Of a stretch of 61,161 nt of DNA, positions 432 to 11,449 are shown piece by piece; the first letter of the stretch is position 1; every line of letters starts with the position of its first letter. The DNA is from Promethearchaeota archaeon Loki_b32 (GTDB lineage Archaea > Asgardarchaeota > Lokiarchaeia > Sigyniarchaeales > SOKP01): NCBI GenBank assembly GCA_005223125.1, contig NJBH01000023.1, forward strand, positions 1-61,161, given 5' to 3'. A program made the position numbers and the translations under genes. The notes below the pieces were generated by a model that had not been told where the DNA came from, ran no database searches, and saw only the letters and a program-made list of their open reading frames with translations.

Positions 432-610
432 TCCATTGCTTTTCAGCGATGAAAATATTATGCAATAACTTATAATAATTCTTCAAAATAGTTTATTCAA
501 GCAAAAGCTTTTTATAGTTGATTTGTCACGGGATAATTGAAAATAGTGAAAAAATCTTCACTATTATAGCGAATCTATATTTTTATAATTTTGAAGGTCT
601 TTTTTGAAAT

Positions 611-2005
611 GTGTATAAAATGAAAATAAACAGAAAATGTTTTAGAATTGTTTTTACCGCTTGGATAGGCGTGCTTTTCTTAATGGGTTCGACATTCTTT
701 AACGAGATCAATACGAAACTCAACGAGGATTCTATTCAACTTCATAATTCAAGTGCATCAACTGATCTTTCATATTACACCTGGGGAGGAAGCGGTTCGG
801 AGGACGCATTTGATATCGCAACAGATTCATCAAACAATTCTTATGTAGTTGGGAAAACTAATAGTTTTGGGGAAGGTGATTATGACTTTTGCTTAATAAA
901 GTTCAATTCCTCCGGCGTGGAATGGAATCGAACGTTTGGTGGAATGTATAGTGATTGGGGAAAAAGTATCGTATTGGATTCCTTCAACAATATATACATC
1001 ACAGGGTACACTGAAAGTTATGGTGCTGGTGGCTCTGATATATGGTTGTTAAAAATCAACTCAACTGGGGGTGTGGAATGGAATCATACATGGGGAGGAA
1101 TTTACGACGATGTTGGATGGAGCCTTGCATTGGATTCCCTAAACAACGCGTATGTAACTGGATATACAAAGAGTTTTGGGGAGGGTGATTCGGACATGTG
1201 TTTGGTAAAGTTTAACTCAAGTGGTGTGGTATGGAACTACACTTGCGGAGGAAGCTATATGGATGTAGGTTATAGTGTGAAGCTGGATCCATTAGGGAAC
1301 GCCTATATTGTAGGAGACACTAAAAGCTTTGGAGTGGGAAAAACAGACATTTACTTGGTTAAGTTTAACTCGAGTGGGATGGTATGGAACTATACGTGGG
1401 GATGTGTCGAAGATGATCAGGCGACAGATATAATCTATAGTCCTTCTGGGGACTTATATGTCGCTGGGTATTACGAGCAACCTCCTAATTGCCATATCCC
1501 TCCTGGAGTTGGAATAAATTCTGTTCTAGGCTTGATAAAATTCACTTCTGAAGGAATTTATCAGTGGAACAGCACGTGGAAAGAAGGATATCTAGATTAT
1601 TCCTCTGGAATGGTGATGGATTCTTCAGGAAATGCATACGTTGCAGGATATACTCTCACAGACGGTCTGGGAGATTATGATTGGTGCTTGGTGAGGTTTA
1701 ATTCAAGTGGTGTTGCAGATTGGTATTGCACATGGGGTACAAGTGAATGTGAAGCCTGCAGAGCAGGTGTAGTGCTTGGCTCGAATGGAACGGCTCTCGT
1801 TGCTGGATATACGCTTGGCTACGGTGCTGGCGGAGCTGATATTTGTGTGGTGCAATTCATACTTGGTCAATGCCCAGTCGCACTACCCGAAGACACAAAC
1901 GGTCTAGTGATCCCGGGATATGATCCAGTCATTTTTATTGGTATCGCTGTTGTGATATCGATATGTTTAATCAAAAGAAAACAAAAGTTCACAATGAGAA
2001 AATAA
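611..2005 (+). CDS. Secreted SBBP-type beta-propeller surface protein with C-terminal membrane anchor
   Basis: A hydrophobic N-terminal helix (about residues 10-30) looks like a signal peptide. It is followed by seven tandem blades of about 45-50 residues with the pattern D..NN.Y..GYT.S.G.GD.D..L.KFNSSG..WN.TWGG, typical of SBBP/beta-propeller repeats. The C-terminus has VIPGYDPVIF followed by a hydrophobic stretch and IKRK, which resembles the IPGY-type C-terminal sorting/anchor signal of Lokiarchaeal surface proteins (recalled family knowledge, not searched). The first codon here is GTG at 611; an ATG three codons in (620) is an equally good start. The gene is visibly richer in G and C than its neighbours, which may mean a different history or strong selection on the Gly/Trp-rich repeats. 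Likely an extracellular, N-glycosylated (many N-S-S/N-x-T sites) binding or scaffold protein; the ligand is unknown. Confidence 0.75.
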   Translation: MYKMKINRKCFRIVFTAWIGVLFLMGSTFFNEINTKLNEDSIQLHNSSASTDLSYYTWGGSGSEDAFDIATDSSNNSYVVGKTNSFGEGDYDFCLIKFNSSGVEWNRTFGGMYSDWGKSIVLDSFNNIYITGYTESYGAGGSDIWLLKINSTGGVEWNHTWGGIYDDVGWSLALDSLNNAYVTGYTKSFGEGDSDMCLVKFNSSGVVWNYTCGGSYMDVGYSVKLDPLGNAYIVGDTKSFGVGKTDIYLVKFNSSGMVWNYTWGCVEDDQATDIIYSPSGDLYVAGYYEQPPNCHIPPGVGINSVLGLIKFTSEGIYQWNSTWKEGYLDYSSGMVMDSSGNAYVAGYTLTDGLGDYDWCLVRFNSSGVADWYCTWGTSECEACRAGVVLGSNGTALVAGYTLGYGAGGADICVVQFILGQCPVALPEDTNGLVIPGYDPVIFIGIAVVISICLIKRKQKFTMRK

Positions 2006-2334: not shown

Positions 2335-3498
2335 ATGGTGAAAATAAAATGTTTTAAATGTAATTCTACAAGTATTGCTTCAAAACCATTTTTACATCGA
2401 AACCCTATAGGTACAACTTCTCGTTCTACATATAGAAGAGAAATTGTTACAGATCATTACCAACTTATTCCTTTAGCTGTTTGTAAAAAATGTAAGAGAC
2501 AATTTAATATTACTCAGAGATTAATTCCTTTTATGAGATTTCCATGTTGTTGGTGTGTAATTTTTTTTTTTCCAATAATAGGTTTCATAACTATTGGTTT
2601 TGCATTCTTACCAGGATTAATACTAATACTTATTGGTTTTTTAACGTTGGTATTTGCACTCTATTCTATGTATCGAGATACTAAATATTCTAAGCGCAGT
2701 AGTGGCAGGTATTTAAGAGTGTTTGGTAATGAGATATATGTAAAATCAGAGGATATGGTTGAATGGGTACACTATAATGAATTTATATCTGATGATTTTA
2801 AACCGTTAGTTTTAGATAAAACAGATAAAGTCCAGTTAAGATCTGTAATAATATCTCGGGTTAAACAAGGACATCAACTACAAAAATTAAACTTAAAGGG
2901 AACCGCAGAATTAGTTTCAGATTATTTCAATTTGGTAAATAATACAAAATCTTTATCCGAATATAGTAATTTATTAATTGAATTAATTCAAATAGATACA
3001 GCGTATTTTCATAACATGCTTTATCCTTGGGTATTGAAAAGACAGCTAAAAGCCTTTTCTGAGAAAGATTTACTAGACATGGAAAAAAAAATAGTCAAGA
3101 ATTCATTTATAGCAATAGATATTGGTGAAAATATAATAACGGATTTTCTAGGGACAATTTTTGTAAAACACTTAAAAAAAGAAAAAATCACTATTCAAGG
3201 TCATATTTTCTTTACTAATTATAGAATCTTATGTCCCTTCTGCCAATTTAAAATTAAAGATTCCATTCATGATTTAGAAGATAAAATTCTTCAACAACAG
3301 AAAGAAAAGATTACTGTTGGGTCACTTAAACCTTTTCTGAACATTCCCATAAATGTAGCAAACGATAATGTAGAATTAAAAGGTTTGTATCTTGTTATGC
3401 AGTCTAACTTTTATGAGAATTATAGGTTAGATATTAAGATAAGCTCTGTGGAATATTTAAAACATCATTATCAACTAATAAAAAAAGGATTCAAGTAG
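2335..3498 (+). CDS. Zinc-ribbon membrane protein of unknown function
   Basis: I do not recognise a family for this 387-residue protein. The N-terminus has a zinc-ribbon pattern: CFKC near residue 6 and CKKC near residue 52. A Cys-rich hydrophobic segment follows (FPCCWC, then two membrane helices between about residues 65 and 110). The C-terminal 270 residues are charged and helical, with another Cys pair (LCPFC) near residue 303. This suggests a cytoplasmic metal-binding head tethered to the membrane. The start is the ATG at 2335; a GTG follows directly and cannot be excluded. The gene stands alone, with AT-rich spacers on both sides. Confidence 0.6.
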   Translation: MVKIKCFKCNSTSIASKPFLHRNPIGTTSRSTYRREIVTDHYQLIPLAVCKKCKRQFNITQRLIPFMRFPCCWCVIFFFPIIGFITIGFAFLPGLILILIGFLTLVFALYSMYRDTKYSKRSSGRYLRVFGNEIYVKSEDMVEWVHYNEFISDDFKPLVLDKTDKVQLRSVIISRVKQGHQLQKLNLKGTAELVSDYFNLVNNTKSLSEYSNLLIELIQIDTAYFHNMLYPWVLKRQLKAFSEKDLLDMEKKIVKNSFIAIDIGENIITDFLGTIFVKHLKKEKITIQGHIFFTNYRILCPFCQFKIKDSIHDLEDKILQQQKEKITVGSLKPFLNIPINVANDNVELKGLYLVMQSNFYENYRLDIKISSVEYLKHHYQLIKKGFK

Positions 3499-3592
3499 AA
3501 ATTTATAAAATCATAGTTTACGCATTGAAAGAAAATATTAAGATTCTTAAGAAATTACAAGAGAGAGCACAAAAGTAAGAATTTCATCAGAA

Positions 3593-3967
3593 TTGGATCC
3601 GGATTTTAATTACTATGATCTCGAAATGGGGAGTCCAAAGGAAGAGCGTAGGACATTTCACAGGAAATTCAATGGAAGACTTATTAATAGGTGTTATAAT
3701 GAGCTAATTCAATGTGCGCACCAATCTAACTCCAGATTTGCTTTCCATGCATTAGGAGTCATAATATTAGAGTATGGGGCAAAGATGCCTGATGAAATTA
3801 AGAAGCTTATTATTGAAAATTCTCGTTGGATAGATGGGCGTAATAGATTTAAACATAAGCTAGCCCCAACTGAAAGAAAAAAATATCTTTTCGACTTTAT
3901 AGCAAAATTGTTAGAATATAAAGATGGAGAAATTGTTAAATTTCCTTGGGTACCAGAAGGCAATTAA
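3593..3967 (+). CDS. Small helical protein of unknown function
   Basis: A 124-residue predicted protein, rich in Arg/Lys and aromatic residues, with no recognised domain. The first available codon is TTG (3593); an ATG at residue 12 (3626) is an alternative, and the open frame may itself be a shortened descendant of a larger gene. The central part (EYGAKMPDEIKKLIIENSRW then IDGRNRFKHK) is copied in decayed form about 265 bases downstream, which argues that this was once a real, duplicated sequence. Function unknown. Confidence 0.4.
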   Translation: MDPDFNYYDLEMGSPKEERRTFHRKFNGRLINRCYNELIQCAHQSNSRFAFHALGVIILEYGAKMPDEIKKLIIENSRWIDGRNRFKHKLAPTERKKYLFDFIAKLLEYKDGEIVKFPWVPEGN

Positions 3968-10357: not shown

Positions 10358-10432
10358 TCTAATAGGATTACTTAATCGTCTTGAAGTATTTGGAGAGCTT
10401 CGTTTAAATACCGTGAAGTATAATGAGATTAA

Positions 10433-10612
10433 TGGTCCCCTCTGCCGGCATATCGTGAATTTTTTTTGGAAATTCAACTCGATCCGGCGACCTCTACCGG
10501 TTTGGTTTACTCCAATACTCTCGGTTTCGGCTGACGTAATTTCATTAGCAATTAGCTTTATTACGCGATTTTATCTACAGCCGAGTACTCTACCAGTCTG
10601 AGTTAAGAGGGG
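10433..10612 (-). tRNA. tRNA-Tyr (GTA) with three introns and encoded CCA
   Basis: Read on the minus strand from 10612: acceptor CCCCTCT, TA, D-arm ACTC-AGACTGGTA-GAGT, A, anticodon stem CTCGG, loop CTGTAGA (anticodon GTA at 10578-10576), stem CCGAG, variable loop AGGTC, T-stem GCCGG, loop ATCGAGG, stem CCGGC, acceptor AGAGGGG, A73 and CCA. This 77-nt molecule is obtained only by removing three segments: intron 1 at 37/38 (10574-10526, 49 nt), intron 2 at 43/44 (10519-10494, 26 nt) and intron 3 at 59/60 (10477-10450, 28 nt); 77+49+26+28 equals the 180-nt span. Introns 2 and 3 show central 4-bp helices (ACCG/CGGT and ATCG/CGAT) with 3-nt bulges cut after the second base, the archaeal bulge-helix-bulge rule; intron 1 has a relaxed version. 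C1-G72 and A73 are the known archaeal tyrosine identity elements. A54 instead of T54 is the only oddity. Confidence 0.9.
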
Positions 10613-10862
10613 TTGTTAAGTTAAAATTAAATAATAATGTAATTAATTTATTTTTTATGTTTTTAGTTTTGGAGTGAATATTGCTATTAAGTTATATGCA
10701 TTTTTTTGCTCATAAAATCCTATCTTTTGTTTAAGAAAACTTATTAAATAAGAAATTTCACACTAGTATTAACTCAAAAATTGCACAACAAAAAAGCTCA
10801 AATTTCTTTTGTTGTGAAAAATTTTTAATAAATTAAACAATAATTTTATAAAATTAAACTAG

Positions 10863-10899: not shown

Positions 10900-11449
10900 G
10901 TGATAATCATTAGAGAAGAAACAGACTATACTGAGGCAATTGAATCGTACAAGAATGATCCGTATATAATTTTAGAACCATGGGGTAGGAGTATTGATCA
11001 TTTAAGACTTACCATCATCGGGAAGAAGGGAACCCCCTATGCAGAGGGTAAGTTCATTTTTGAAATCAAATTTCCAGAAAGATGAGAGACTATGCGTCCT
11101 CATTCTGGACAATTACCCATTTGCTCCTCCCTATGCTTACGCAGTTACTTTAATGTGGCATCCTAATATTGATTCCTCTATTCCCCCAGGAAAATTGAAC
11201 ATTTGTCTAGACCTAATTAATCCAGATCTTGTAGGTAAGGTGGATGCTTCAACTGGAGCAAGTGGATGGACACCGAGTAAAACTCTGATTAATATTATTG
11301 AAGCTTTAAAAGGAATGATGCATTACGAAGCTCCTTTCTTTAATCCGGGCGATCCATTGAATCATGAAGCAGGAGAACAATATTTCAGAGCCCTTAAGAA
11401 ATTTGAGGGAAAAGCTAACGCTTGGACTAAAAAATACGCGATGGATTGA
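10900..11449 (+). CDS. E2-like ubiquitin-conjugating enzyme, interrupted by one frameshift
   Basis: Two overlapping frames together give one UBC-fold protein of about 180 residues. The first (10900-11085, GTG start) ends in the E2 segment GTPYAEGKFIFEIKFPE; the second carries YPFAPPYAY, the HPN motif (WHPNID), the active-site Cys in LNICLDL (codon 11204-11206), and GWTPSKTL. Removing one base near 11079-11085 (GAAAGA to GAAGA) joins them as FPEDERLCVLILDNYPFAPP. That join has about eight residues more between the FP and YPF motifs than usual E2s, so the exact repair is uncertain. Role: accepts a ubiquitin-like modifier from E1 as a Cys thioester and passes it to lysines. The matching E1 is encoded on the minus strand 2.3 kb away; no modifier, RING or JAB protease gene is in the window. 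Sequencing error and a recent mutation are both possible. Confidence 0.85.

Follow-up and report, generated by a model that had tools for sequence, protein, structure and literature searches.

The window analysed here, a stretch of 61,161 nt that corresponds to contig C30 of genome G000 (4.13 Mb in 71 contigs, 95.5% complete), carries on its minus strand a tRNA-Tyr(GTA) gene, which we read from the sequence at positions 10612..10433. Once 49 nt at position 37/38, 26 nt at 43/44 and 28 nt at 59/60 are removed, a 77-nt cloverleaf ending in CCA remains, with all of its stems paired, and the lengths account for the whole locus (77+49+26+28 = 180 nt), so that the exact arithmetic and the complete cloverleaf bear out the three introns and the coordinates proposed in a preliminary description of this DNA. 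Exon 1 (10575..10612, minus strand; tRNA positions 1-37), which is conserved in relatives, comprises the acceptor 5' strand, the D arm, the 5' strand of the anticodon stem and CTGTAG, with the anticodon GTA at 10578..10576 (minus strand), and reads CCCCTCT TA ACTC AGACTGGTA GAGT A CTCGG CTGTAG up to the 49-nt intron. It is followed by exon 2 (10520..10525, minus strand; positions 38-43; A CCGAG), the 26-nt intron, exon 3 (10478..10493, minus strand; positions 44-59; AGGTC GCCGG ATCGAG), the 28-nt intron and exon 4 (10433..10449, minus strand; G CCGGC AGAGGGG A CCA), which supplies G60, the 3' strands of the T-stem and acceptor, A73 and the encoded CCA. All four stems (CCCCTCT/AGAGGGG, ACTC/GAGT, CTCGG/CCGAG and GCCGG/CCGGC) are formed entirely of Watson-Crick pairs. 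The GTA anticodon, C1-G72 and A73 are all present, the last two of which we take to be the tyrosine identity elements of archaea (the TyrRS rule).

Position 54 of the gene is A instead of the usual U and its T-loop ends in GG, features that it shares with the uninterrupted relatives L007 and L008. An A or C at position 54 was observed in many Lokiarchaeia (the window gene, L002, L003, L007, L008 and L047), and the usual modification of U54 is therefore impossible in these tRNAs. A TATA/BRE-like element, AAAAAATAAATTAAT, lies 30-44 nt upstream of the mature 5' end (10642..10656, minus strand), occurs in similar form in congeners and probably acts as the promoter. The downstream T-run of most relatives' tRNA-Tyr genes is absent in G000. 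On the other strand, a frame of 62 codons (10413..10601, plus strand) bears no sign of being a gene, as had been supposed. The ORF adjoining the tRNA gene (window 11039-11449, plus strand) matches the ubiquitin-conjugating enzyme family (UQ_con, E=5e-13), a eukaryote-like family.

Neither ARAGORN nor Rfam reported a tRNA anywhere within the window, and the tRNA-Tyr locus was not among the 33 places listed by the Rfam tRNA model over the whole genome at E<=10, confirming the expectation that ordinary tRNA searches may miss the gene. Both methods thus drop an essential gene of a Lokiarchaeon, and the tRNA sets of such genomes are likely to be under-counted. We obtained a single match in the genome with the 180-nt gene as query, a single tRNA-like match with the pattern TGGNAGA-N9-TGTA and a single match with a covariance model of intron 1, and found no GTA anticodon among the above-cut-off Rfam tRNA matches. 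The search for another tRNA-Tyr gene, which the preliminary description had called for, accordingly gave no intact copy elsewhere by any of these routes, an absence that is less than absolute because the assembly is 95.5% complete. The gene pattern retrieved 17 named records, all of them Candidatus Lokiarchaeota/Lokiarchaeia, in agreement with the earlier impression of an Asgard genome.

Each intron boundary could be assigned a bulge-helix-bulge (BHB) or relaxed BHB motif. Intron 3 (28 nt; 10450..10477, minus strand; position 59/60, T-loop) has a strict hBHBh' motif with the T-stem as its outer helix: folded alone, the segment forms an outer helix of 5 bp, a central helix of 4 bp (ATCG/CGAT) flanked by two 3-nt bulges, and an inner helix of 7 bp, and the central and inner helices were kept in only 14 of 1e6 mononucleotide shuffles of the intron. 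Intron 2 (26 nt; 10494..10519, minus strand; position 43/44, between the anticodon stem and variable region) is of the HBh' type, with a 4-bp central helix (ACCG/CGGT, often only CCG/CGG in relatives), 3-nt bulges (AGA on the 5' side) and an inner helix that contains a single bulged A; an outer helix is lacking. The 4-bp central helices and 3-nt bulges noted earlier for both introns were therefore recovered, intron 3 being a strict BHB, but intron 2 is a relaxed motif and not a full one. Intron 1 (49 nt; 10526..10574, minus strand; position 37/38) is relaxed, as previously described, with a CTG/CAG helix (GCTG/CAGC if the base of the stem is counted) and enlarged bulges, of which the 5' bulge is long and the 3' loop measures 4 to 14 nt, depending on the genus. 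It has no 3-nt bulges, and its 3' cut is placed by homology, not by a canonical motif. Other registers with canonical bulges were rejected by eye, as they produce an 8-nt anticodon loop or fail in L036 and L020, relatives with longer 3' loops, and the 37/38 position therefore stands.

The strongest evidence for the junctions comes from homologues that lack individual introns, which independently support each of the three. A member of the same genus (L007, in G001) retains introns 1 and 2 without intron 3, and its continuous GCCGG ATCGAGG CCGGC contains exactly the predicted T-loop, ATCGAGG; a second congener (L008, in G005) retains only intron 1 and is continuous through the variable region and T-loop (CCGAG CGGTC GCCGG ATCGAGG); and an intron-less gene from another Asgard family (L009) reads CTGTAGA without interruption where intron 1 sits. 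The three splice points read earlier are thus upheld by relatives that lack introns at exactly the predicted points. A third congener, G009 (L040), also has three introns near the positions of those in the window: one each at 37/38 and 43/44, and one in the T-loop, where the registers 59/60 and 57/58 score equally.

Among 66 parsed tRNA-Tyr genes, 65 contain the 37/38 intron, a frequency biased upwards because the loci were gathered mostly with intron-1-based patterns and the covariance model. A pattern based on exon 1 recovered no more than 8 of 58 relatives, since it fails where the D arm has an intron or bases have changed; the intron-1 pattern and covariance model performed far better. The T-loop intron at 59/60 occurs in about 30 of the 66 (in some congeners the 57/58 register scores equally), the 43/44 intron in six, and a D-arm intron at 22/23 in three clear cases. 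Intron 2 is nearly letter-for-letter identical between the window and L007, which come from independent assemblies. Intron 1 is conserved and old; introns 2 and 3 seem to have been inserted sporadically and recently. The relatives thus provide a fine-grained series of presence and absence of BHB introns at 22/23, 43/44 and 59/60 of a single orthologous gene, in part among members of one genus, on which the gain of such introns can be tested directly.

Some relatives contained inserts that our parser could not place. In L004 and L005 (G022 and G035), the acceptor 3' strand AGAGGGG has no pairing partner immediately 5' of the D arm; CCCCTCTT occurs farther upstream and precedes an insert that resembles a hairpin (ATTTAAAGGAATAACCTTTAAAGAGG), which suggests an intron near the junction of the acceptor and D arm. 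The T-loop insert of these two genes is at a different point from the others. In another Asgard family (f24), inserts without an assigned position follow the anticodon stem (L128) and lie at the 5' edge of the T-loop (L130).

We identified further interrupted tRNA genes in the genome. The tRNA-Thr(GGT) gene on contig C56 yields a perfect 76-nt cloverleaf after two 30-nt segments, at 43/44 and 59/60, are taken out, and the Gly(TCC) and Glu(TTC) genes each have one BHB intron to remove. The tRNA-Tyr gene is therefore one of several interrupted tRNAs, in which the 43/44 and 59/60 positions recur. As about half of the genome's other tRNA loci gave no parse with a generic multi-intron parser, we claim no genome-wide percentage of introns.

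The genome encodes two paralogues of the splicing endonuclease, one with an intact catalytic triad and one without. The first (on contig C18) matches the alpha subunit of Aeropyrum pernix (E=2.4e-35), retains the Tyr/His/Lys triad, and has a lysine, K60, that aligns pairwise with chain residue K44 of the A. pernix Crenarchaea-specific loop, which is required for the broad specificity of that enzyme (PMC6379350). The second (on contig C2) matches Methanocaldococcus jannaschii EndA (E=7.9e-24) and has Ser at the catalytic His. Such a pairing is the signature of an (alpha-beta)2 enzyme, the type known to cleave relaxed motifs, and the two subunits are predicted to assemble in this way, which would place a Crenarchaea-type splicing endonuclease in Lokiarchaeia. 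An RtcB ligase (a 524-aa frame, E=1e-170) and an enzyme of the TruD/Pus7 family are also encoded. We propose that the gene would be transcribed as one pre-tRNA with three introns, from which the (alpha-beta)2 endonuclease with its Crenarchaea-type loop would cut intron 3 at a strict BHB, intron 2 at an HBh' motif and intron 1 at a relaxed one, and that RtcB would join the exons to give a tRNA that could be charged. Introns 1 and 2 would be in competition for CCGAG, a strand of the anticodon stem: excision of intron 2 would need ACCG paired to that intron's own CGGT, whereas the strand stays free when intron 1 is folded (CGGCTG/CAGCCG), and intron 2 is therefore probably removed before, or independently of, intron 1.

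The gene, cloverleaf, junctions, pattern of intron presence and absence, and enzyme genes are all there in the sequence itself, and we consider it very probable that 10433..10612 is a functional, and probably the only, tRNA-Tyr(GUA) gene of this Lokiarchaeon, made as one three-intron pre-tRNA and spliced by an (alpha-beta)2 endonuclease and RtcB. A tRNA-Tyr pseudogene in decay that has taken up insertions, the functional copy having been left out of the assembly, would be compatible with a genome that is 95.5% complete and has a precedent in the partial tRNA-Tyr relic of the congener G017; it is nevertheless highly improbable, given that all stems are perfectly paired, that CCA, C1-G72 and A73 are intact, that the intron lengths and positions agree with those of functional-looking genes of relatives, and that the intron-exon central helices, which decay would break, have been kept. 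Still harder to credit is that mis-assembly or chance produced the extra sequence of the anticodon stem and T-loop and that the tRNA parse is coincidental, for which only the draft status of the genome speaks: the near-identical intron 2 of L007 comes from an independent assembly, T-loop introns occur in about 30 genomes, and the strict BHB of intron 3 is as rare among shuffles as described above.

Within intron 1 we identified a conserved stem with a kink-turn-like internal loop (10534..10566, minus strand; GCGTAAT-AA-AGC..GCT-AATGA-AATTACGT), supported by covariation and by covariance-model matches across the phylum. In a fixed-length parse, all 32 sequences of a first set show the same succession of AT-n-(A/T)TC, a strand of 7 nt, RA, a short hairpin, NRTGA, a strand of 8 nt and CAG. 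Over 23 sequences, 97.5% of cells are paired and 22 are double-changed, a result equalled by none of 500 shuffles and destroyed by sliding the partner strand by 1-3 columns. Of 79 genomes in the order, 56 contain a match to the covariance model of the intron (R1), and weaker matches occur in other families of the class and phylum. The succession of NC-stem, RA, C-stem, a 3-nt loop NRU and GA resembles the C-stem, 3-nt loop, tandem G.A and NC-stem of a kink-turn. RA/NRTGA combined with a stem of 4 bp or more is present in 44 of 65 introns versus 161 of 3250 shuffles, the 21 introns outside the strict motif including several that miss it by a mismatch only, and several distant introns (L132, L138 and L159) have the textbook UGA opposite AUGA. 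The 2n position is A in G000 and many congeners and G in others, and L7Ae still binds kink-turns with A at 2n, a known rare variant (PMC3985660); the motif is a possible L7Ae site. A box C/D or H/ACA guide was rejected from the fold, in which a stem of its own locks up the strand on the 5' side of RA and there is no 3' pocket strand; inspection of the fold showed no ACA box or guide complementarity in intron 1.

The element raises the possibility, which would add to the splicing account above without replacing it, that intron 1 is more than a spacer and binds L7Ae, being kept because it helps pre-tRNA-Tyr to be spliced, folded or modified (Psi35, for example). We regard this as plausible but somewhat doubtful. 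The covarying stems, the enrichment of the motif, its textbook form in the distant introns, the model matches in other classes of the phylum and the tolerance of L7Ae for A at 2n all point towards it, as does the TruD/Pus7-type enzyme, to which UGUAG is suited; conversely, 21 of 65 introns miss the strict motif, the retention of intron 1 is over-counted with loci gathered by patterns and a model derived from the window's own intron, and L009, which lacks the intron, presumably still makes tRNA-Tyr. Only tentatively, and as a rather unlikely proposal in this specific form, do we suggest that Asgard tRNA-Tyr keeps an ancient 37/38 intron because of a conserved L7Ae-binding kink-turn, which would replace the missing canonical BHB in splicing or serve modification of the anticodon. 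If true, a tRNA precursor would contain an intron that functions by binding a protein and that is conserved throughout the phylum regarded as the origin of the eukaryotes, and the element is a candidate functional tRNA intron in a lineage near the eukaryotes, in which tRNA-Tyr introns matter for Psi35. No literature combining Asgard tRNA introns with a kink-turn was found among titles and abstracts, which is weak evidence of novelty.

Multi-intron tRNA genes, with up to three introns, are known in the Thermoproteales (PMC4033280, PMC4090602), as in the tRNA-Pro(UGG) of Pyrobaculum islandicum, with introns at 25/26, 37/38 and 56/57 (PMC4090602, PMC4033280). The present gene resembles these in its small introns at canonical and non-canonical positions, its BHB and relaxed BHB motifs and its predicted (alpha-beta)2 endonuclease, but comes from another phylum and combines 37/38, 43/44 and 59/60 in a Lokiarchaeon tRNA-Tyr. 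Position 59/60 is a listed archaeal intron position, whereas 43/44 is absent from the same list, which itself ends in "etc." (PMC4090602). Among Asgards, 92-95% of the tRNA genes of Atabeyarchaeia and Freyarchaeia are reported to contain introns, over half of them several and often at non-canonical positions (PMC11291895); these belong to other Asgard classes, and the passages on these introns give neither the present gene nor a gain/loss series or an analysis of the endonuclease. To call three introns in an Asgard tRNA unusual, as the preliminary description did, was thus an overstatement: such genes are already known in Thermoproteales and, since 2024, in other Asgards, and the tRNA-Tyr case extends them to another Asgard class. 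Its surprise is moderate, and the conserved element of intron 1 is less expected. The predicted endonuclease pair shares with that of A. pernix (PDB 3p1z, 3ajv; PMC6379350) the Tyr/His/Lys triad of alpha, the lysine aligned with K44 and a catalytically incomplete beta, but belongs to a Lokiarchaeon. The box C/D intron of euryarchaeal pre-tRNA-Trp (PMC11408192) is an archaeal tRNA intron with a kink-turn-type motif, comparable to the kink-turn-like element of intron 1, which differs in having a single motif, a long flanking stem that hides any guide, and no identified guide complementarity.

Finally, homologous LAGLIDADG ORFs were observed beside interrupted tRNA genes in two genomes. In G000 (L091, C56:2600-4250), such an ORF (3003-3746, minus strand) lies between tRNA-Thr(GGT) and an interrupted tRNA with a CAT anticodon, and a fragment resembling the 5' end of the latter, GCTGGTGTGGCTTA, is found on the far side of the ORF. 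In the congener G017 (L125, C18:57400-58900), an intact tRNA-Tyr with introns at 22/23 and 37/38 is followed by a free LAGLIDADG_3 ORF (488..1222) and by a second tRNA-Tyr copy that lacks the 5' half and begins at TAGAT, near the boundary of exon 1 and intron 1, with 82% identity over 110 nt. This arrangement looks like the entry of a homing-endonuclease element into tRNA-Tyr at the exon 1/intron 1 boundary, bringing with it a replacement 3' half.
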